Numbered from the stretch's first letter, positions 1,278 to 22,145 are shown. The stretch is DNA of 44,134 nucleotides from a virus (IMGVR_UViG_3300047181_000115:1-44134); one strand, 5' to 3'. Numbers and translations: made by a program. The notes: generated by a model not told the origin, from the sequence alone.

Positions 1278-1353
1278 TCCCTGGTAGCTCAACCGGCAGA
1301 GCGGGTGGCTGTTAACCACTAGGTTGCAGGTTCGAGTCCTGCCCAGGGAGCCA
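1278..1353 (+). tRNA. tRNA-Asn (anticodon GTT)
   Basis: A full cloverleaf with encoded CCA. The acceptor stem pairs TCCCTGG (1278-1284) with CCAGGGA (1343-1349), the D arm is GCTC/GAGC, the anticodon stem GGTGG/CCACT encloses CTGTTAA with anticodon GTT, and the T arm pairs GCAGG with CCTGC around TTCGAGT. G1350 is the discriminator base and CCA ends at 1353. The prophage begins in its 3' half. Confidence 0.97.
1312..1353. other. Probable left attachment site (attL) in the 3' half of tRNA-Asn
   Basis: The recombinase gene on the minus strand runs without interruption into the tRNA gene. Its last 13 codons and stop are the antisense of the tRNA 3' half, giving the C-terminus WLPGQDSNLQPSG, a familiar sign of integrase genes abutting a tRNA. 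Everything to the left is chromosomal and everything to the right is phage-like. The exact crossover core cannot be fixed because attR is outside the window. Confidence 0.65.
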
Positions 1354-2865
1354 GATGTTACAGTCTGCGAACCGTCGTGTATTTGGTAACCCATACCAAA
1401 CCTCGATGGTTTGACGACTATGGATAAGCACCTTCTTCACCAGCCGGTGGAGGAGGTGCTTCTTTTTTGGGTTGGGCCCTTCGGCCATCACCTTCTCGAA
1501 GTTGTCCACGATGGATGTGAGCATCTCCCGGTCGATGGCCGGCAGCTCCAGCCGCTCCCGCCTGGCCTCCAGCCCTCGCTTTTCACCCTCCAACTCCTCC
1601 ATCCGGGTGCGTAGGTTCCGGACCTTCTCGTTGCAGAGTTCCGCCTTCAGCGTCCCGGCTTCGAAGGCCTCGAAGTACCGGTCGATGGCCCCCTGGGTCT
1701 TGGTCATCTGCCCCTCGATCCGGGCGATTTCCTTCTCCAGGTCCGGCTTCTCGGCCCCGAGCCGTTTATTTGCTTCCTCCCAGATCCGAGCCATGAACGG
1801 CTCGTCCCGGAACATGTTCTTGACGTCCTCGATGATTGCCATTTCGAGGAGTTCGGCCCGCACGTAGTCTTGCTCGCAATCGTGGTCATTGAAGCGTTTC
1901 GAGCAGACGTAATACGGGACGCGGACGCCTTTCTTGGTTCCTGAGGCCCCGAACATATTGCTCTTGCACTTGGCGCATTTGATGATCCCGGTGAGGAGCC
2001 GCTCGTCGCCGTTGTGGAACTGACGACCCTTTGACTCCTCGTGACGTGCCTCGAGGACCTCCTTGGCCTTCTCGAAGATGATGTCGGACACGAGAGGGTC
2101 GTGATGCCCCTCGTATAGAACCTCTCGCCAGCGTATCTTTCCCACGTAGACCGGATTCCTTAGCATGTGGAGGACGACGCGCCGGCCCCACTTCCGGCCG
2201 TTCCGGTTGCGGTTGCCGGCCTCATTGATTTGCTTGCAGATCGCAGACGAGCCTTCCTTCCCGAACGTATACATCTGGAACATCTTCCGGACGATGAGCG
2301 CCTCGTCCTCGTTGATAACCAGGCCCTTCTCCGGGTCGAGCAAGAAACCGTAGGGAACGTTCCCGCCCACGAATTTGCCGGTCTTGGCCTTCTTTTCCAT
2401 CCCGACCTTCGTCCGCTCGACGATGGTGGCATGTTCGAACTCGGCGAAGACGCCCAGCATCTGGAGCATCATCTTTCCGGCGGCGTTGGCGGTATCGAAC
2501 GGCTCGGTGATGCTTTTCAGCGCGACCCCGTTCTTTGTGAGCTCGTCCACCATTTGGGCAAGCTCGCGAACCTTGCGGGATAGGCGGTCCACCCGGAATA
2601 CGAGGAGGGTGTCGAAGGCCCGGGCTCCGACGTCGAAGAGCATCTCTTCGAGCCCGGGCCGGTTCATGTGGGTTCCGGATTCGGTGTCCCGGTAGAGCTT
2701 GTGGAGCCGCCAGTCGTCCCCGTACTGCGCCTTGCAGAAGGCCTCCAGCCGTTCCGACTGGGCTCCGAGGGAATATTTCTGGTGGTCCTCGTCGGTCGAG
2801 ATGCGGGTGTAGAAGGCGACTCGGGTCACCTGGCCGTTCCCGCCGGCATTTTGCGTCTTGGCCAC
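1312..2865 (-). CDS. Serine recombinase (prophage integrase) with zinc-ribbon and coiled coil
   Basis: A 517-residue large serine recombinase. The resolvase domain comes first, with the catalytic serine in YTRIST (Ser23) and the arginine motif FRVDRLSR. Then come the Recombinase domain (VPYGF..., RNPVYVGKIRW), a zinc-ribbon beginning CAKC with later Cys residues, and a long charged coiled coil (about residues 370-460). This domain order is typical of enzymes that integrate and excise mobile DNA by double-strand breakage through a Ser-DNA link. GTG 2865 was chosen because AGGAG lies just upstream and the resolvase domain starts soon after. The gene is last in a four-gene leftward operon, eight bases after the RAMA-like gene, and it ends inside the tRNA. 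Phage integrases that use tRNA genes are mostly tyrosine recombinases, so a serine enzyme here is less usual. Confidence 0.93.
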   Translation of the reverse strand: MAKTQNAGGNGQVTRVAFYTRISTDEDHQKYSLGAQSERLEAFCKAQYGDDWRLHKLYRDTESGTHMNRPGLEEMLFDVGARAFDTLLVFRVDRLSRKVRELAQMVDELTKNGVALKSITEPFDTANAAGKMMLQMLGVFAEFEHATIVERTKVGMEKKAKTGKFVGGNVPYGFLLDPEKGLVINEDEALIVRKMFQMYTFGKEGSSAICKQINEAGNRNRNGRKWGRRVVLHMLRNPVYVGKIRWREVLYEGHHDPLVSDIIFEKAKEVLEARHEESKGRQFHNGDERLLTGIIKCAKCKSNMFGASGTKKGVRVPYYVCSKRFNDHDCEQDYVRAELLEMAIIEDVKNMFRDEPFMARIWEEANKRLGAEKPDLEKEIARIEGQMTKTQGAIDRYFEAFEAGTLKAELCNEKVRNLRTRMEELEGEKRGLEARRERLELPAIDREMLTSIVDNFEKVMAEGPNPKKKHLLHRLVKKVLIHSRQTIEVWYGLPNTRRFADCNIWLPGQDSNLQPSG

Positions 2866-2873
2866 GGTGGCTC

Positions 2874-3281
2874 CTAGTTGCCCACTTTGCGCAGCATGTT
2901 GAGCTTCTTCAGGCCGTTGCCGGGGACCTCGTAGCTCCAGAAGGTCCACCCGTCCACCTCGCGGCCTGTGACCTCTTTCCCGGCGCGGGAAGGGCTGTTG
3001 AAGGTCTTGCCGTTGACCGTGATCGTCCCGTCCTCGTTGACCTTCGCCTTGAGCTCGGTCCCCTTGTACGTGACCACCAGTTCCTTGGGGGCTACCTTGA
3101 GGGAGGCCAGCGCGGGGGTGCGCTTGCCGGCCTTCTTCTCAACCGGCGTCTTCGTGGCGGTTTTCGCCTTCTTGCCAGTCCCCTTTTTCGCCGTCTTCGG
3201 TTTTGTTTCCGGCATCACCCAGGTCTTTCCGTCTGCGCTCTTGCTGGTCTTCTGTTCCGTGGCGTTCTTTTTCTTCGTCAT
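2874..3281 (-). CDS. Lys-rich protein with C-terminal RAMA/DUF2924-like domain
   Basis: A 135-residue protein. Residues 1-55 are a Lys/Thr-rich, probably disordered tail. Residues 65-125 form a compact domain with the pattern YKGTELKAKVNEDGTITVNG, then FNSPSRAGKEVTG and GWTFWSYE. This matches the RAMA and DUF2924 type of small domain, found with DNA methylases and beside serine recombinases. A role in binding DNA and assisting the recombinase is plausible from position but not shown. The start has a strong AAGGAGGTG site upstream. The gene lies four bases after the zinc-binding gene and eight bases before the recombinase start, so the three are surely co-transcribed. Confidence 0.7.
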   Translation of the reverse strand: MTKKKNATEQKTSKSADGKTWVMPETKPKTAKKGTGKKAKTATKTPVEKKAGKRTPALASLKVAPKELVVTYKGTELKAKVNEDGTITVNGKTFNSPSRAGKEVTGREVDGWTFWSYEVPGNGLKKLNMLRKVGN

Positions 3282-15624: not shown

Positions 15625-15906
15625 ATGCGAGCAGCCGAGCTTCGGACGCTGGTCCAGGCTCCGTCGACCGTCAAGTATCGCAAGGAGCCCCCGGCTCCGA
15701 TCAAGTGCGACTACTCGAACGAGCGCCTGCAGTACTGCGTCGACATCGCTGTGCTCACCGAAAAGTGCGACCGGTCTGGATACATGGCTGCCTACCTTTC
15801 AGGAATGCGGTGGGAGGCGATCCCGGAGGTCTTCCGGGGAAGGTGTGCGGCGGACATTCGACGGCTCCGGCGCGAACTGAGGAATGGAGGATATTCCGTT
15901 GAGTGA
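15625..15906 (+). CDS. Small unknown protein next to the origin
   Basis: A 93-residue basic protein. The first half has KYRKEPPAPIKCDYSNERLQYC; the second, helical half (GYMAAYLSGMRWEAIPEVF, then ADIRRLRRELR) looks like a small DNA-binding helix pair, which is inference only. I chose ATG 15625, preceded by GAGG at suitable spacing; in-frame ATG 15598 would add nine residues but has no ribosome site. The end overlaps the next gene, suggesting co-translation. Confidence 0.5.
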   Translation: MRAAELRTLVQAPSTVKYRKEPPAPIKCDYSNERLQYCVDIAVLTEKCDRSGYMAAYLSGMRWEAIPEVFRGRCAADIRRLRRELRNGGYSVE

Positions 15907-16111
15907 CTGGCTCGTTGGTAAAAAGGCGGTGGCGAATGCGCTCGGGGTGAGCGTGAGTACCCTTAAACGGTACCTGAAGCGGTATCCGGATTTTCCGGCG
16001 CATGGGCGTGGAGGGACGATCTTTGTGTCGCCGGCGGCGCTCGCGGCGTGGGTTGAAAATCGAGCGATCAAGAAGTGCCTAACTTGCGGTATTGGAATCC
16101 CGTTGGTATAA
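15899..16111 (+). CDS. Small HTH (excisionase/Nu1-like) protein at the island border
   Basis: A 70-residue protein with a MerR/excisionase-like winged helix: WLVGKKAVANALGVSVSTLK, then RYLKRYPDFPAHGRGGTIFVSP, the recognition helix and wing. Roles could be excisionase, a small regulator, or a Nu1-type DNA-binding subunit. TTG 15899 is the likely start: GGAGG lies eight bases before it, whereas ATG 15884 has no spacing for a ribosome site. The last dozen residues (KKCLTCGIGIPLV) fall where base composition changes to AT-rich, so the C-terminus may have been replaced when the island inserted. Confidence 0.6.
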   Translation: MSDWLVGKKAVANALGVSVSTLKRYLKRYPDFPAHGRGGTIFVSPAALAAWVENRAIKKCLTCGIGIPLV

Positions 16112-16181
16112 AGTATTTCAATGTGTTAAATCGAGTTTGCCTTGGCTCCCCGAATTTAAAGAAAAAGAGGTTGTTAACACT

Positions 16182-17513
16182 ATGAATGTACTCTTTATAT
16201 CTGAGGATTTGGTAGCCGGCAACCTGGCGTATCTTTTAAGTAACGAAGGTCACGAGGTCAAGCTTTATATTAAAGATAGAGGTAGACGGGATAATTTTGA
16301 AAATTTAGTGCCCAAAGTACAGGACTGGAAAAAAGAACTTCGATGGGTGGGCAAGAAGGGATTGATTGTTTTTGACAGTTGCAGCCACGGTAAAATACAA
16401 GATGACCTTCGCAGGGAAGGTTATTCTGTAGTCGGTGGCTGCGAAATAGGGGATAAACTGGAAAACGATAGGGTATTCGGGGCTGGGATATTTAAACTCT
16501 ATGGAATGCAAACAGTTCCACAATTCAATTTTAAAAGTATTGATGCTGCAATCCGATTTATTAAAAAGAGGAGAGGTAAATGGGTAATTAAGCAGAATTT
16601 TTCAGGCACTGGTCTTAAAAGTTTTAACTATGTTGGAATATTAGAAAGTGGCGATGATGTAATTAACGTACTGAATAATTACAAGACACATTATAAAATT
16701 ATTAATACAATAATTACTCTCCAACAGAAAATTGACGGAGTTGAAATTGCTGCAGGTAGATATTTTAATGGAAGCGATTGGATTAGCCCAATTGAAATGA
16801 ACATAGAACATAAAAAATTATTTCCTGGTGATTTAGGGCCGTCTACAAGTGAAATGGGGACTATTGCTTGGTACGACAATGATGAAAACAATAAACTATT
16901 CAAAGAAACATTGGGCAAATTAAAGCCATTTCTTATAGATATAGGTTTTAGAGGAGATATTGATATTAATTGTATCGTCAATGATAAAGGAGCTTTCCCC
17001 TTAGAGGCAACAGCACGTTTTGGCTCGCCGATAATCCATCTACATAGTGAGATTCATTCATCCCCTTGGGGTGAATTTTTAAAGTGCGTAGCCGACGGGC
17101 GTACCTACAAATTGAGATGGAAAAAAGGATTTGGTATCGTAGTCGTTGTTACAGTTCCAACAAGCCAGCCTTTTCCATTTACAAAATCAGAAAGATATAT
17201 TTCACCGAAAGGCCTGAATATATATTTTAGCGATAAAATAAAGAAGGGAGGAAAGCTAGATCATATCCATTTTGAAGACGTTTCGATGAGATTTCATAAT
17301 CGCGAAAAACAATATTATATTTCAGATGATCGAGGATATGTTCTTTACGTGACAAGTATCGGTAAAACTGTGGAGGAAGTGAGAAAAAAAGCGAATATAT
17401 TGCTAAATAATATTTATATTCCCAAGATGTTCTTTAGGAATGATATAGGAATCAGATTTCTTACAGAGGACGCGGCAAAACTCGAAAAATGGGGATACCT
17501 AAATACTATATAA
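16182..17513 (+). CDS. PurD-like ATP-grasp enzyme of the AT-rich cassette
   Basis: A 443-residue ATP-grasp protein. A Rossmann-like pre-ATP domain opens it (MNVLFISEDLVAGNLAYLL); the ATP-binding lysine lies in WVIKQNFSGTG (residues 134-144); STSEMGTIAW corresponds to the TGGMG loop of PurD; and PLEATARFGSP (273-283) to the metal-binding E-x-N-x-R-F-G-D-P motif, here with Thr in place of Asn. PurD joins glycine to phosphoribosylamine, but these changes and the cargo context point to another carboxylate-amine ligation; the substrates are unknown. ATG 16182 has AGAGG upstream. The gene is strongly AT-rich, unlike the phage genes, and converges with the decarboxylase gene (eight-base overlap of the 3' ends). 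Confidence 0.82.
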   Translation: MNVLFISEDLVAGNLAYLLSNEGHEVKLYIKDRGRRDNFENLVPKVQDWKKELRWVGKKGLIVFDSCSHGKIQDDLRREGYSVVGGCEIGDKLENDRVFGAGIFKLYGMQTVPQFNFKSIDAAIRFIKKRRGKWVIKQNFSGTGLKSFNYVGILESGDDVINVLNNYKTHYKIINTIITLQQKIDGVEIAAGRYFNGSDWISPIEMNIEHKKLFPGDLGPSTSEMGTIAWYDNDENNKLFKETLGKLKPFLIDIGFRGDIDINCIVNDKGAFPLEATARFGSPIIHLHSEIHSSPWGEFLKCVADGRTYKLRWKKGFGIVVVVTVPTSQPFPFTKSERYISPKGLNIYFSDKIKKGGKLDHIHFEDVSMRFHNREKQYYISDDRGYVLYVTSIGKTVEEVRKKANILLNNIYIPKMFFRNDIGIRFLTEDAAKLEKWGYLNTI

Positions 17514-18654
17514 CAATATATTTTGCTTTCGGCAGAGAAATAAAATCGGACCCAAAAGTATACGCGCCACAGTTTTTAAAAACAAGATAATCCCCACCTT
17601 TAAGGTTATGTAATTTAACTTCCCGACTGAACACATCGCGTGAATCAGGCGTACTTCCTCTAATAGTATAAGATTTTAATTTAGCATTATTGAATGTTTT
17701 ATTAATTTTTGCGACCGGCAAGTTCAGATCAACGATCAACGTATCCAGGGAGTGATTGTAAAGAGAACAATTTAGTATAGCAACATCTTTTGATAGAAAT
17801 TTTTTCGTATGAACGACTTGCGTAATTAACAGGACAGACTCAGCAATGAGCTTTCTTCCCGGTTCGAATATATAATGGATTTCAGGATATGCTTTTGAAA
17901 TCCGCGTTTGAGCATTCGTTATCAAGTTTGATATTTCGTCCAACCTTGGAACCGGTTTTAAATATCTCACTGGATATCCTCCACCGAAATCCATTGAATC
18001 TATTCTTATACCTTCCAATTTCATTTCCAAGACAAATTTTGTAATTTCCTTCAAATTCAGTTTCCACATATCCAAATGAGTATTTTGAGAAATTAGATGA
18101 TTATGAACCCCTAATCTTATTCTACCTTTTTTTCTTAAAGTATTTAATTTCTTTAATGCCAGCCTCGCTTTTATTAAAGGAAATCCCAAATACGAATCCA
18201 TTCCATAGGAAAGTTCAGGCTTTTTAACTTTGACTCCGGTGTTTATTCTTATAAGCAATTCCAACACATTATCGTTCGATTTAATGTTGCCGAGAAGCAA
18301 TCTGAGTTGGTCCTCAGAATCAATAATAAAGCGCCTGACGCCCAATTTCCTTATTCCTTGTAGTTGATCATAGGTCAAACTTGGAGACTGAAATATTAAT
18401 TTATCCGTTGAAATGTTTGGCTGTCTTACTAAGCTCATCAATTCTTCGACAGAGGACAGCAAAAAACTGCATCCCATATTTGCGACCAATTCAATGATCG
18501 AATTGTGACAGTTTGTTTTGTGCGAGTATGCAATCTCACCCTTAAAAGTATTTAGTAGGATATGGATATTCTTTTCGAGAGCTTCTGAATTAACGACAAA
18601 ACATGGTGTTTGATTTTCCCATTTGGGACGATTCTGCGTTAGAAAATTATACAT
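17506..18654 (-). CDS. Fold-III PLP-dependent decarboxylase (Orn/DAP/Arg family 2)
   Basis: A 382-residue protein of the alanine-racemase-fold decarboxylases. AYSHKTN carries the PLP lysine (Lys46); DFGGGYPV is the phosphate-binding glycine loop; FEPGRKL is the EPGR motif; and NCGAYTF near the end contains the substrate-site Tyr. The family removes CO2 from ornithine, diaminopimelate, arginine and related amino acids or carboxy-polyamines; which one cannot be read here. It lies 55 bases downstream of the transporter gene on the same strand, forming a two-gene operon, and converges with the ATP-grasp gene. Base composition is AT-rich like its neighbours. Confidence 0.87.
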   Translation of the reverse strand: MYNFLTQNRPKWENQTPCFVVNSEALEKNIHILLNTFKGEIAYSHKTNCHNSIIELVANMGCSFLLSSVEELMSLVRQPNISTDKLIFQSPSLTYDQLQGIRKLGVRRFIIDSEDQLRLLLGNIKSNDNVLELLIRINTGVKVKKPELSYGMDSYLGFPLIKARLALKKLNTLRKKGRIRLGVHNHLISQNTHLDMWKLNLKEITKFVLEMKLEGIRIDSMDFGGGYPVRYLKPVPRLDEISNLITNAQTRISKAYPEIHYIFEPGRKLIAESVLLITQVVHTKKFLSKDVAILNCSLYNHSLDTLIVDLNLPVAKINKTFNNAKLKSYTIRGSTPDSRDVFSREVKLHNLKGGDYLVFKNCGAYTFGSDFISLPKAKYIVI

Positions 18655-18709
18655 TTACGAAGCCACCCCCTGGCAGTAATAATATTTATTAATCTCCATG
18701 TTATTAGAT

Positions 18710-19654
18710 TTACATATTTATCAAATAGATACCAAACCCCATCAATACGATAGCTATAAATTTGGATCCAATCCCAACAAGCTGTTCTTCATAAATATTT
18801 TTCATAATTTCACGCTTTTTCAGAGAAAAAAGGGTAAAGAAAACAAAAGATAAAGCACTTATCATCAAAATAAACGCAGGCTGAAAACTCTCAATGACAG
18901 CCACGAAAGAGACGGAAGGACTTCTATCTATCGTCCTTTGAGCACATAATACCCCCGCAATAGTTATCATCTCTGTCATTAAAAACCATCCAAAATATTT
19001 CTTATTAAGATGTAATATATGCCCTATGTTATTTCTTTTTTTTAACAACAGGAGACATATTGAACCCAAGACATTTCCAAAGCAAAAAATTAAAAGTCCT
19101 GACCAAAAATCTGTAGACGAATAGACCTTATCTTGAATTACCATACTCAATGACAAGAAAAATATAGCACCTAGCATTATTAGAATTATTTTTGAATAAT
19201 TTGAGCGTCGCAGTTTTTTATTAGCGCTCATAAGACCTGCACCTAAAAAAGTTACAAAAATTCCTGCATACTGAATTAAAGTGAGCTTTTCGTCGAGTAG
19301 TAAGAAAGCCATGCATGGAACAAAGATGGCGACCAAATTCCATAATACCTGTAGCAATGAAATATCATCGACAACGAACAAGGCTTTGAAATAAAAAAAC
19401 ATCGCTAAAAAGAAAAAAACGCCACCAAATAAAGCTAAAAGGATTATTTTATTGTCTGCCGTCGGAATACCACGGGACAGGATTGCAACAGCGGGAATTA
19501 TTTGAAAGAATCCAGTGATGATGGCTCCTTCATATTCATCCTCATAGGCTTCCATCACAAAATAGAGATCAATTACGTTAACAGCGGCCCAAAAAAAAGG
19601 GGCCGCAAAAGCAAGCAACAGCCAGTTATTCCATATACCAAATATGATGTTCAC
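18710..19654 (-). CDS. EamA/DMT-superfamily transporter, probable exporter
   Basis: A 314-residue integral membrane protein with about ten hydrophobic segments in two similar halves, typical of the 10-TM EamA drug/metabolite transporters. The first half has FFYFKALFVVDDISLLQVLWNL and then LLLDEKLTLIQYAGIFVTFLGAGLM, the family pattern of an acidic DEK loop followed by a Gly-rich helix. Members export amino acids, nucleosides or drugs through the inner membrane. It starts with GTG at 19654; AGGAG lies about 14 bases upstream. It is the first gene of the leftward cargo operon, so it probably exports the product of the neighbouring enzymes. Confidence 0.85.
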   Translation of the reverse strand: MNIIFGIWNNWLLLAFAAPFFWAAVNVIDLYFVMEAYEDEYEGAIITGFFQIIPAVAILSRGIPTADNKIILLALFGGVFFFLAMFFYFKALFVVDDISLLQVLWNLVAIFVPCMAFLLLDEKLTLIQYAGIFVTFLGAGLMSANKKLRRSNYSKIILIMLGAIFFLSLSMVIQDKVYSSTDFWSGLLIFCFGNVLGSICLLLLKKRNNIGHILHLNKKYFGWFLMTEMITIAGVLCAQRTIDRSPSVSFVAVIESFQPAFILMISALSFVFFTLFSLKKREIMKNIYEEQLVGIGSKFIAIVLMGFGIYLINM

Positions 19655-20113
19655 TTTGAATTCGTCAACTCCTGAATAATAGACAAAAATTATTCAAATT
19701 AAACAACTGGTCGTTCAGGACGACGAAAATTAGTACACGATAGGAAATTGATTTTTCGTACCACGCCGGAAGATCACCTCGATGAGTCGGGCTTCATTGC
19801 ATAAACCCCCAATTCATCATTCCCCCGTTTCGTTATCACGCTGAAAATAAATACGAATGAAACCTCCCAGGTACGGCCCACTTCGATTTTGCTGGATATT
19901 ATCAAATGTTGTTTCCATAGGCGATATGTTATTTACCTCTCCTGCGTTGAAAAGAATGAGTTGATTGAAGTCTTGTTGCCCCATATTGACCCCTTCCTGA
20001 TCCCCCCTTGCATCGTGTAATATCGAATTACACTGGTTGAACTGCCGGGAGATGACCTCCCGTTATGGCCGGGTTTCCCTCGAGGAGATCCGGCCTTTAT
20101 CTTTGGAGCGAAT
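19655..20113. other. Gene-free right border of the AT-rich island
   Basis: No gene is visible. The left part is AT-rich like the cassette and should hold the promoter of the leftward transporter operon; the composition returns to GC-rich near 20040. A perfect inverted repeat, GTGTAAT-ATCGA-ATTACAC (20015-20033), looks like an operator. Short hairpins follow at 20047-20075 and 20074-20096. A promoter for the late genes may lie here, but I see no convincing pair of boxes. Confidence 0.5.
20015..20033. promoter_or_regulatory. Perfect 7-bp inverted repeat, operator-like
   Basis: GTGTAAT and ATTACAC flank ATCGA. It differs from the lexA operator. It lies about 80 bases upstream of the first late gene and at the edge of the island, so it may bind a regulator of the late genes. 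Confidence 0.4.
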
Positions 20114-20728
20114 GTGGACATTCAAATCCAGGTCACGGGCATTGTCGAACTTGTAAGAAACCTGCGGGATCTCGGCGTCAATCGCATCCCGAACTATGTC
20201 GCGCGTGCGCTTACCGGAATTGCAGATCAGGCGCAGAGCGCGATGGAAAAGAATATGCGATCCGCGCTCACGATTCGCGGGACGTGGGCAACCAGGGGAT
20301 ACAAGTACTCGGTAAAACGGATCGCGGCGAATAAGAAAAACCTTGAGGCCGAAGTCTACACCGAAGCGCCGTGGCTATTTGAGCAAGAGACGAAGTCGAC
20401 CATCACGCCACGTAAGGCGGGGCTGCTGGCGACCCCCACACGATGGGTACGCCCATCGCGGCTGAACGAGGAGGTCATCAAGAAAGCCCTCCGTCCTCGC
20501 AGCCTAAAGCGCACGTTCAAAGTAATGTCGCGCTACGGGAACGAGGTGATCTATCAGCGGTCGGGCACGGGAAGGCTGTCCACCATCCTGCCCATGTACG
20601 TACTGCGCAGGCAGACGCCCGAGCCACAACGCATCCACCTGGTTGACGTCGCAGTCGAAGCAATCAACAAGGCAATAGATCCGGTCATCGCGGACATGCT
20701 GGATCAGGCGATCAAAGAGAACCCATAG
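20114..20728 (+). CDS. Lambda gpZ/HK97 gp10-like minor tail protein
   Basis: A 204-residue protein, close to lambda gpZ (192 residues). It begins VTGIVELVRNLRDLG, followed by the helical NYVARALTGIADQAQSAMEKNMRSAL, and continues with a basic beta-rich region. The end, VDVAVEAINKAIDPVIADML, is typical of the Z/gp10-like tail-completion proteins, which sit at the head-proximal end of the tail. GTG 20114 follows GGAG. The oddity is location: in lambda-like genomes Z lies between FII and U, here 29422 and 29733, which overlap with nothing between them; this gene instead precedes the methyltransferase and terminase. Confidence 0.62.
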   Translation: MDIQIQVTGIVELVRNLRDLGVNRIPNYVARALTGIADQAQSAMEKNMRSALTIRGTWATRGYKYSVKRIAANKKNLEAEVYTEAPWLFEQETKSTITPRKAGLLATPTRWVRPSRLNEEVIKKALRPRSLKRTFKVMSRYGNEVIYQRSGTGRLSTILPMYVLRRQTPEPQRIHLVDVAVEAINKAIDPVIADMLDQAIKENP

Positions 20729-20825: not shown

Positions 20826-22145
20826 ATGAACGTTGCGATGGTCGACATCCAGCGGGTGATCCCATACGCCCGCAATCCCCGGAAGAACGAGCTCGCGGTG
20901 GCCAAGGTGGCCGCCTCCATCAAGGAGTTCGGTTGGCGGCAGCCGATCGTCGTCGACAGTGAAATGGTCATCGTCGTCGGACACACCCGGTACCTGGCAG
21001 CCATGCAACTCGGGATGGAGAAGGTTCCGGTGCATGTGGCCGAGGGTTTGACCCCGGAGCAGGTCAAGGCGTACCGGATCATGGATAACCGATCGCATGA
21101 GTCTTCAGAGTGGGACGACTCGCTCCTGGCGATCGAACTGACCGAACTTAAAGATGCTGACTTCGACATGGATCTGACGGGGTTCGATGATGACGAACTC
21201 GCCGAGAAGTTGGCAGCTGGGATCGTGGGGACGGCGGGGCTAACCGATCCCGACGAGGTGCCAGAACCACCTGATGATGCGATCACGCAGCCGGGGGACC
21301 TGTGGATCTTAGGCGACCATCGCCTTCTGTGTGGGGACAGCAGCAGTGTGGCGGACGTTGATTACCTGCTCGGTGGGGCGACGATCCACCTGGTCAACAC
21401 CGATCCGCCGTACAACGTGAAGGTCGAGCCCCGCAGCAACAACGCGATCGCCGCCGGGAACAGCTCGTTTTCTAAGACGCATCACCAGAGCCTGGACCTC
21501 GCCCTTCATCCGGGGAAGGACAAGCCGACCACCAAGAAGATGCGGCCTAAAGACCGGCCGCTGATGAACGACTTCGTCTCTGACGAGGCGTTCGAGAAAC
21601 TCCTTCAGGCGTGGTTTGGGAATATCTCCCGGGTGCTGGAGCCGGGGAGGGGCTTCTACATCTGGGGCGGGTACGCCAACTGCGGGAACTATCCGCCGGT
21701 CTTGAAGGAGAACAAGCTCTACTTCGCGCAGGCGATCATCTGGGTAAAGGAGCACCCGGTCTTAACGCGCAAGGATTTCATGGGCAATCATGAATGGTGT
21801 TTTTATGGTTGGAAAGAAGGCGCTGCACACCACTGGCTGGGCCCCACGAACGCCACCGACGTCTGGTCGGTGAAGAAGGTCAACCCCCAGAGCATGATCC
21901 ACTTAACCGAGAAGCCGGTGGAGTTGGCGGTCCGGGCGATGCAGTACTCCTCGAGGCCCGGTGAAAACGTCCTGGACCTCTTCGGCGGGAGTGGATCGAC
22001 GCTGATCGCCGCGGAACAGACCGGCCGAAAGTCCTTCCTCATGGAGATCGACCCACCGTACTGCGACGTCATCGCGCAACGTTACGAGAACTTCACTGGC
22101 AAGAAACCCGAGAGGGTCCCGCGTGGCGAGCGCGTGGCTGTTTAA
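20826..22145 (+). CDS. ParB-like domain fused to DNA N-methyltransferase
   Basis: A 439-residue fusion. Residues 1-90 are a ParB/Srx-like domain (IPYARNPRKNE, VVVGHTRYLAAMQLG, the nucleotide-binding G-H-x-R motif). Residues about 150-430 are an N6-adenine or N4-cytosine methyltransferase: the catalytic DPPY in NTDPPYNV (about 194) comes before the SAM-binding DLFGGSGSTLIAAEQTG (about 382), the beta-class order. LTEKPVELA is the usual motif before it. Such genes beside the terminase are common in temperate phages; they probably protect phage DNA from host restriction or mark it for packaging. RBS AAGAGG lies before ATG 20826. Confidence 0.9.
   Translation: MNVAMVDIQRVIPYARNPRKNELAVAKVAASIKEFGWRQPIVVDSEMVIVVGHTRYLAAMQLGMEKVPVHVAEGLTPEQVKAYRIMDNRSHESSEWDDSLLAIELTELKDADFDMDLTGFDDDELAEKLAAGIVGTAGLTDPDEVPEPPDDAITQPGDLWILGDHRLLCGDSSSVADVDYLLGGATIHLVNTDPPYNVKVEPRSNNAIAAGNSSFSKTHHQSLDLALHPGKDKPTTKKMRPKDRPLMNDFVSDEAFEKLLQAWFGNISRVLEPGRGFYIWGGYANCGNYPPVLKENKLYFAQAIIWVKEHPVLTRKDFMGNHEWCFYGWKEGAAHHWLGPTNATDVWSVKKVNPQSMIHLTEKPVELAVRAMQYSSRPGENVLDLFGGSGSTLIAAEQTGRKSFLMEIDPPYCDVIAQRYENFTGKKPERVPRGERVAV

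Follow-up and report, generated by a model that had tools for sequence, protein, structure and literature searches.

The 44,134-nt IMG/VR virus record IMGVR_UViG_3300047181_000115 (the window, meaning here the whole stretch of DNA analysed) carries, side by side, genes for an ATP-grasp ligase, a PLP-dependent decarboxylase homologue and an EamA-type transporter, raising the question of what such genes are doing in a phage and whether their products work together. The record is that of a temperate tailed phage, with primase, terminase, portal, capsid, tape measure and tail fibre genes (PHROG and annotation). Its temperate lifestyle is supported by its gene content, because it encodes a serine integrase (1312 to 2949, minus strand; PHROG 95) and a LexA-like repressor, in agreement with the prophage setting first proposed for the locus. 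The integrase gene adjoins a tRNA-Asn gene (1278 to 1353), and the 42 bp shared by the tRNA gene and the 3' end of the integrase ORF suggest integration at tRNA-Asn; a second copy of the tRNA end, which would mark the right attachment site, was looked for within the window and not found. Elsewhere, adjoining the terminase genes, an ORF at 20826 to 22145 (plus strand) fuses a ParB-like N-terminal domain to an N6/N4 DNA methylase, and many related phages have a counterpart of this fusion at 59-75% identity.

The three genes lie in a foreign cassette of ~3.9 kb (16094 to 19980), delimited by breakpoints, GC profile and codon usage. The 443-residue PurD/GARS-like ATP-grasp ligase is encoded at 16182 to 17513 (plus strand), the 382-residue fold-type-III PLP enzyme of the ODC/LysA superfamily at 17506 to 18654 (minus strand) and the 314-residue EamA-type multi-spanning membrane transporter, with a GTG start, at 18710 to 19654 (minus strand). 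All three are long, open, intact frames, each with a Pfam match, and the gene calls of the first-pass annotation hold roughly where it had placed them. The ATP-grasp gene is co-directional with the phage genes, while the EamA and then the PLP-enzyme gene run the opposite way, in a convergent arrangement that forms no single operon; the 3' ends of the ATP-grasp and PLP-enzyme genes overlap by 8 bp. To the right lies a non-coding arm (19655 to 19980) with no ORF of 60 residues wholly inside it. This is where the leftward EamA-PLP pair should have its promoter; a promoter scan gave scores no better than those of shuffled sequence.

The composition of this block differs from that of the phage. GC content is 34-40% across the cassette against ~60% in the phage, GC3 is 0.31-0.35 in its genes against 0.70-0.86 in the phage genes compared, and codon usage, alike among the three genes (r 0.80-0.86), correlates poorly with that of the phage core (r 0.05-0.19, with helicase and primase compared). 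Because codon usage is shared among the three and unlike the core, they probably come from one low-GC donor, consistent with the earlier suggestion that they had been acquired together. Transposon-type direct repeats were sought around the cassette, with only short, chance-like matches.

Comparison with sister phages defines the site of this acquisition. Sisters were found by a scan with the neighbouring primase, and three contigs (L093, L094 and L175) were compared with the window by blastn. The four related phages have flanks that are 77-96% identical (at the DNA or protein level), common breakpoints and four unrelated cargoes. The left breakpoint, common to all three sisters, is at 16093/16094, inside the last codons of an HTH_17 (excisionase-like) ORF (15884 to 16111, plus strand; Pfam and PHROG). 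In L093 and L175 homology picks up again at 19981; the contig of L094 ends within its cargo. At the right edge of the slot, a terminator-like hairpin (20067 to 20095, plus strand; 12-bp stem and T-rich tail) is followed by a neck/tail-completion gene (20114 to 20728, plus strand; PHROG 1924/27). In L093, most proteins on both sides are 91-96% identical to those of the window, the neck gene being only 58% identical, and the same site holds a different 4.7-kb insert (L093:4360-9060) with a type IV Mrr restriction enzyme (PADLOC mREase_IV, E 7.5e-96; Pfam Mrr_cat and Mrr_N) and a nucleotidyltransferase-like gene. The cargo of L094 (L094:13010-14020) encodes a DUF2569 membrane protein, and that of L175 (L175:8500-12930) is different again from those of L093, L094 and the window. 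The remaining cargo genes of the sisters mostly have no family.

Since sisters with the same breakpoints carry different cargo at the same site, positions 16094 to 19980 of the window are one filling of an interchangeable cargo (moron) locus, and block acquisition from a low-GC donor is the best explanation for the cassette. Phage morons and other variable cargo loci have the same foreign GC, common breakpoints, differing sister cargo and intact flanks. The hairpin at the right edge is a putative terminator, its sequence being kept in L093, and, in the three sisters only, a promoter-like sequence lies just inside the left edge (TTGATR-17 bp-TATACT, read by eye in L093, L094 and L175 and absent from the window).

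As to the proteins themselves, the ATP-grasp ligase matches Pfam GARS_A at 1.8e-6 (over the cut-off) and GARS_C at 7.6e-7 (under the cut-off), and on the PurD profile TIGR00877 it scores 76.3 bits against an NCBIfam cut-off of 288. Its AlphaFold (AF2) model is confident (pLDDT 92). Foldseek puts only GAR synthetases at the top of the solved structures (E 1e-31 to 3lp8), and we confidently assign the model to the GAR-synthetase fold. In the tree, its family is a sister clade of PurD, split off with 100/100 support, with members in phages, two delta-proteobacterial MAGs, one haloarchaeal plasmid and two alphaproteobacterial plasmids (the Sphingomonas plasmid copy, split over two annotated ORFs, was omitted from the tree). 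Nearest to the window protein are the two MAG proteins, at 48-50% identity and with 94/88 support. Within the one phylum searched (that of G001), the gene was found in 2 of 297 genomes, and further genomes of the same order or class yielded none.

The fold, the domain order, the HK..GD.GP.T.EMG motif and the C-terminal FR.DIG motif are those of PurD, and the ATP-grasp residues kept include K137, E188, E209, E275 and R279. However, the (I/L)E(F/Y)N.R.GDPE motif, seen in two of three PurD outgroups, reads LEATARFGSP in the window protein and LExTxRxGxP across the sister family. Because ENxR.GDPE is replaced in this way by ExTxRxG, the family is unlikely to carry out the PurD reaction. Judged from these features, the ligase is a member of a PurD sister family, and neither PurD nor a recognised siderophore ligase.

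The PLP enzyme matches Pfam Orn_Arg_deC_N (4.9e-29) and Orn_DAP_Arg_deC (1e-10), and falls below every curated NCBIfam cut-off (151.8 bits against 297.9 for LysA TIGR01048). It is divergent within the ODC/LysA superfamily, no relative found exceeding 29% identity; an alignment-based scan returned relatives at 22-24% identity only. Its domain order, PLP lysine and GGG, EPGR and GAY motifs are shared with the fold-type-III PLP decarboxylases (LysA, ODC, L/ODC, SbnH, BtrK, PvsE-like), and the PLP-site residues are in place (K46 as the PLP lysine, H186, GGG224-226, EPGR264-267 and GAY363-365). Unlike those decarboxylases, which have a catalytic Cys within GPTCDSxD (CxxxD), the cassette enzyme has Pro336, in the motif GSTPDSRD; the Cys is present in all seven aligned relatives. 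A second change concerns the Asp that in ODC binds the distal amine of the substrate (ODC position 332; NDGVY in relatives), which aligns with Cys296 (NCSLY). The Arg and Tyr that are substrate-specificity residues in LysA were looked for in the alignment and are absent.

Because the catalytic Cys and the ODC Asp are missing, simple amine formation is doubtful, and the original view of a plain amino-acid decarboxylase supplying an amine fits these residues poorly. The AF2 model of the enzyme is weaker than that of the ligase (pLDDT 71, with a poor C-terminal third); it matches fold-III decarboxylases (Foldseek) and is too weak at residues 297-310 and 332-347 to show whether Cys296 might stand in for the missing Cys. 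By its title, PDB entry 9cpz is a Cys387Ser fold-III D-Orn/D-Lys decarboxylase with PMP and 4-guanidinobutanal, a mark of decarboxylation-dependent transamination and what is expected with that Cys missing. The natural prediction is that the cassette enzyme, if active, would give an aldehyde or take an unusual substrate; it may also be inactive or run another reaction. Elsewhere, on a Nostoc commune plasmid (L180:7030-9131), a fold-III decarboxylase adjoins a class II aminoacyl-tRNA synthetase-like protein, with JmjC/cupin and DUF3865 proteins upstream, in what looks like another small-molecule cluster.

The third protein matches Pfam EamA at 2.4e-6 and only marginally, through one repeat that scores 28.3 bits where the cut-off is 28.2. 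Hydrophobic segments run along its full length. It is a marginal member of EamA/DMT.

Our best guess, held tentatively and at somewhat less than an even chance, is that the lysogen makes a small molecule on which all three proteins work, and exports it. Mechanistically, the PLP enzyme would decarboxylate an amino acid or an amino-acid conjugate. With Pro in place of the proton-donating Cys, it would probably differ from standard ODC and LysA enzymes and release an aldehyde together with PMP, by decarboxylation-dependent transamination, or else use a relocated residue. The PurD-like ATP-grasp would activate a carboxylate as an acyl phosphate and join it to an amine, and the EamA protein would export the product or flip it across the membrane. 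The gain would be the lysogen's (competition, signalling or an envelope change), with none for virion production. Several features count against such a joint pathway, namely that partners such as adenylation, NIS and other tailoring enzymes are absent, that the gene order is convergent and not that of an operon, and that the EamA score is marginal. The more specific version, in which a Cys-less decarboxylating transaminase making an aldehyde, an ATP-grasp forming an amide and EamA export would constitute a previously unknown kind of minimal pathway to a secreted metabolite, appears distinctly improbable.

The wider distribution of the genes bears directly on this proposal. Scans of the viral contig collection with each of the three cassette proteins as a single query returned no real relatives, and the one EamA match (L012) was discarded, since it covers just 35 residues within the ORF of an integrase; short-peptide patterns likewise found no close relative of the PLP enzyme in viral contigs. 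A separate scan identified at least 528 viral contigs with relatives of the ATP-grasp, and within the DNA fetched none of the 80 examined had a PLP-enzyme or EamA homologue beside it. Neither gene was found near any of the five cellular or plasmid ATP-grasp loci (Halarchaeum, Roseomonas, Sphingomonas and the MAG loci), and across 395 genomes of the G001 phylum the PLP enzyme had no match at E 1e-40, in a search run without a positive control. The first-pass annotation had named absence of the three-gene neighbourhood elsewhere as one half of what would speak against its proposal, and no co-occurrence was found in this search, limited to one phylum and one viral collection. As the trio was not found elsewhere, the case for functional linkage rests on physical co-acquisition, on shared composition and on position.

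These observations lend weight to a reading in which the genes are unlinked: the ligase would be one more of the phage PurD-like ATP-grasps, with virion or host proteins as targets, and the EamA-PLP pair would be a passenger with its own promoter. The ATP-grasp may work by itself, as its phage relatives seem to do. One viral clade has the gene between the terminase large subunit and portal genes (L019, L020, L024, L026 and L027; the terminase is PHROG-confirmed in L019 and L026 and the portal in L020, L026 and L027, the others being read from sequence), and other phage copies lie near neck, head-closure, head, tail or lysis genes (further loci in this set are L013-L015, L023, L005 and L030). 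A different phage ATP-grasp clade, R2K, has been described and suggested to modify host proteins (PMC4431377). The opposite orientation of the ligase gene relative to the other two also favours separate roles. However, the window ligase groups with cellular proteins, it lies in a cargo slot outside the head module, and its codon usage is that of the other two cassette genes. On balance, we regard independence of the three genes as rather unlikely.

The cellular neighbourhoods of the ligase suggest a further role, in envelope modification. In this form of lysogenic conversion, which we consider unlikely, the ATP-grasp would amidate a carboxyl group (of a uronic acid or other) on a surface glycan precursor, the PLP enzyme would supply the amine or aldehyde and EamA would flip the product, the altered surface excluding competing phages. 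Temperate phages commonly change host surfaces, and envelope-sugar genes occur around or close to the two cellular ATP-grasps most similar to the window ligase, a modest lead: one (L006) adjoins a set like that for ADP-heptose (PfkB kinase, cytidylyltransferase-like protein and HAD phosphatase) and a formyltransferase, and the other (L010/L011) is downstream of a UDP-sugar dehydrogenase. Polysaccharides of uronic acids decorated with amino acids do exist, according to a published account (PMC4663550). Yet these neighbourhoods are fragmentary and come from two genomes only, the cassette has no glycosyltransferase or GtrA-type gene, and the literature searched gave no account of a uronamide role for ATP-grasps of this type. 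At L011:7509-9557, the ATP-grasp homologue is directly followed by a short methyltransferase-like protein, which has no match in Pfam and looks by eye like guanidinoacetate methyltransferase.

Anti-phage or abortive defence through small-molecule chemistry is suggested by the restriction enzyme and nucleotidyltransferase-like gene in the L093 slot, but known systems do not typically include an exporter or the homologue of a biosynthetic decarboxylase, and we judge defence cargo of this kind highly unlikely. A known defence system was rejected, none of the three proteins matching PADLOC-DB even at E 1. The vibrioferrin locus (PvsA-E), to which the genes had been likened through PvsA and PvsE, also has an ATP-grasp, a PLP decarboxylase homologue and an exporter in one place, but a locus of that type is rejected because its defining IucA/IucC-type NIS synthetase (PF04183) is absent from the 44-kb record, which may be incomplete (controls were positive), and the ligase is of PurD type. 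Further differences are an EamA exporter in place of MFS and the lack of a receptor and a regulator.

As to the setting of the proposed joint pathway, the cargo known from temperate-phage slots consists mostly of defence genes, toxins and enzymes that modify the surface. A literature search on this gene combination gave nothing relevant, and no description of such a metabolic trio as the content of a phage cargo locus was found in the literature searched; the cassette is best classed with a known type of locus, the phage cargo slot, as content of a new kind. The survey has also exposed a large family of phage PurD-like ATP-grasps, of which five representatives were tested against PHROG with no match. 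For fold-III enzymes, the natural loss of the catalytic Cys in a homologue predicts an aldehyde and PMP, and not an amine, as products. If the joint pathway is true, the exchange of a restriction enzyme for a small-molecule pathway at one site would add to the list of cargo known from temperate phages.
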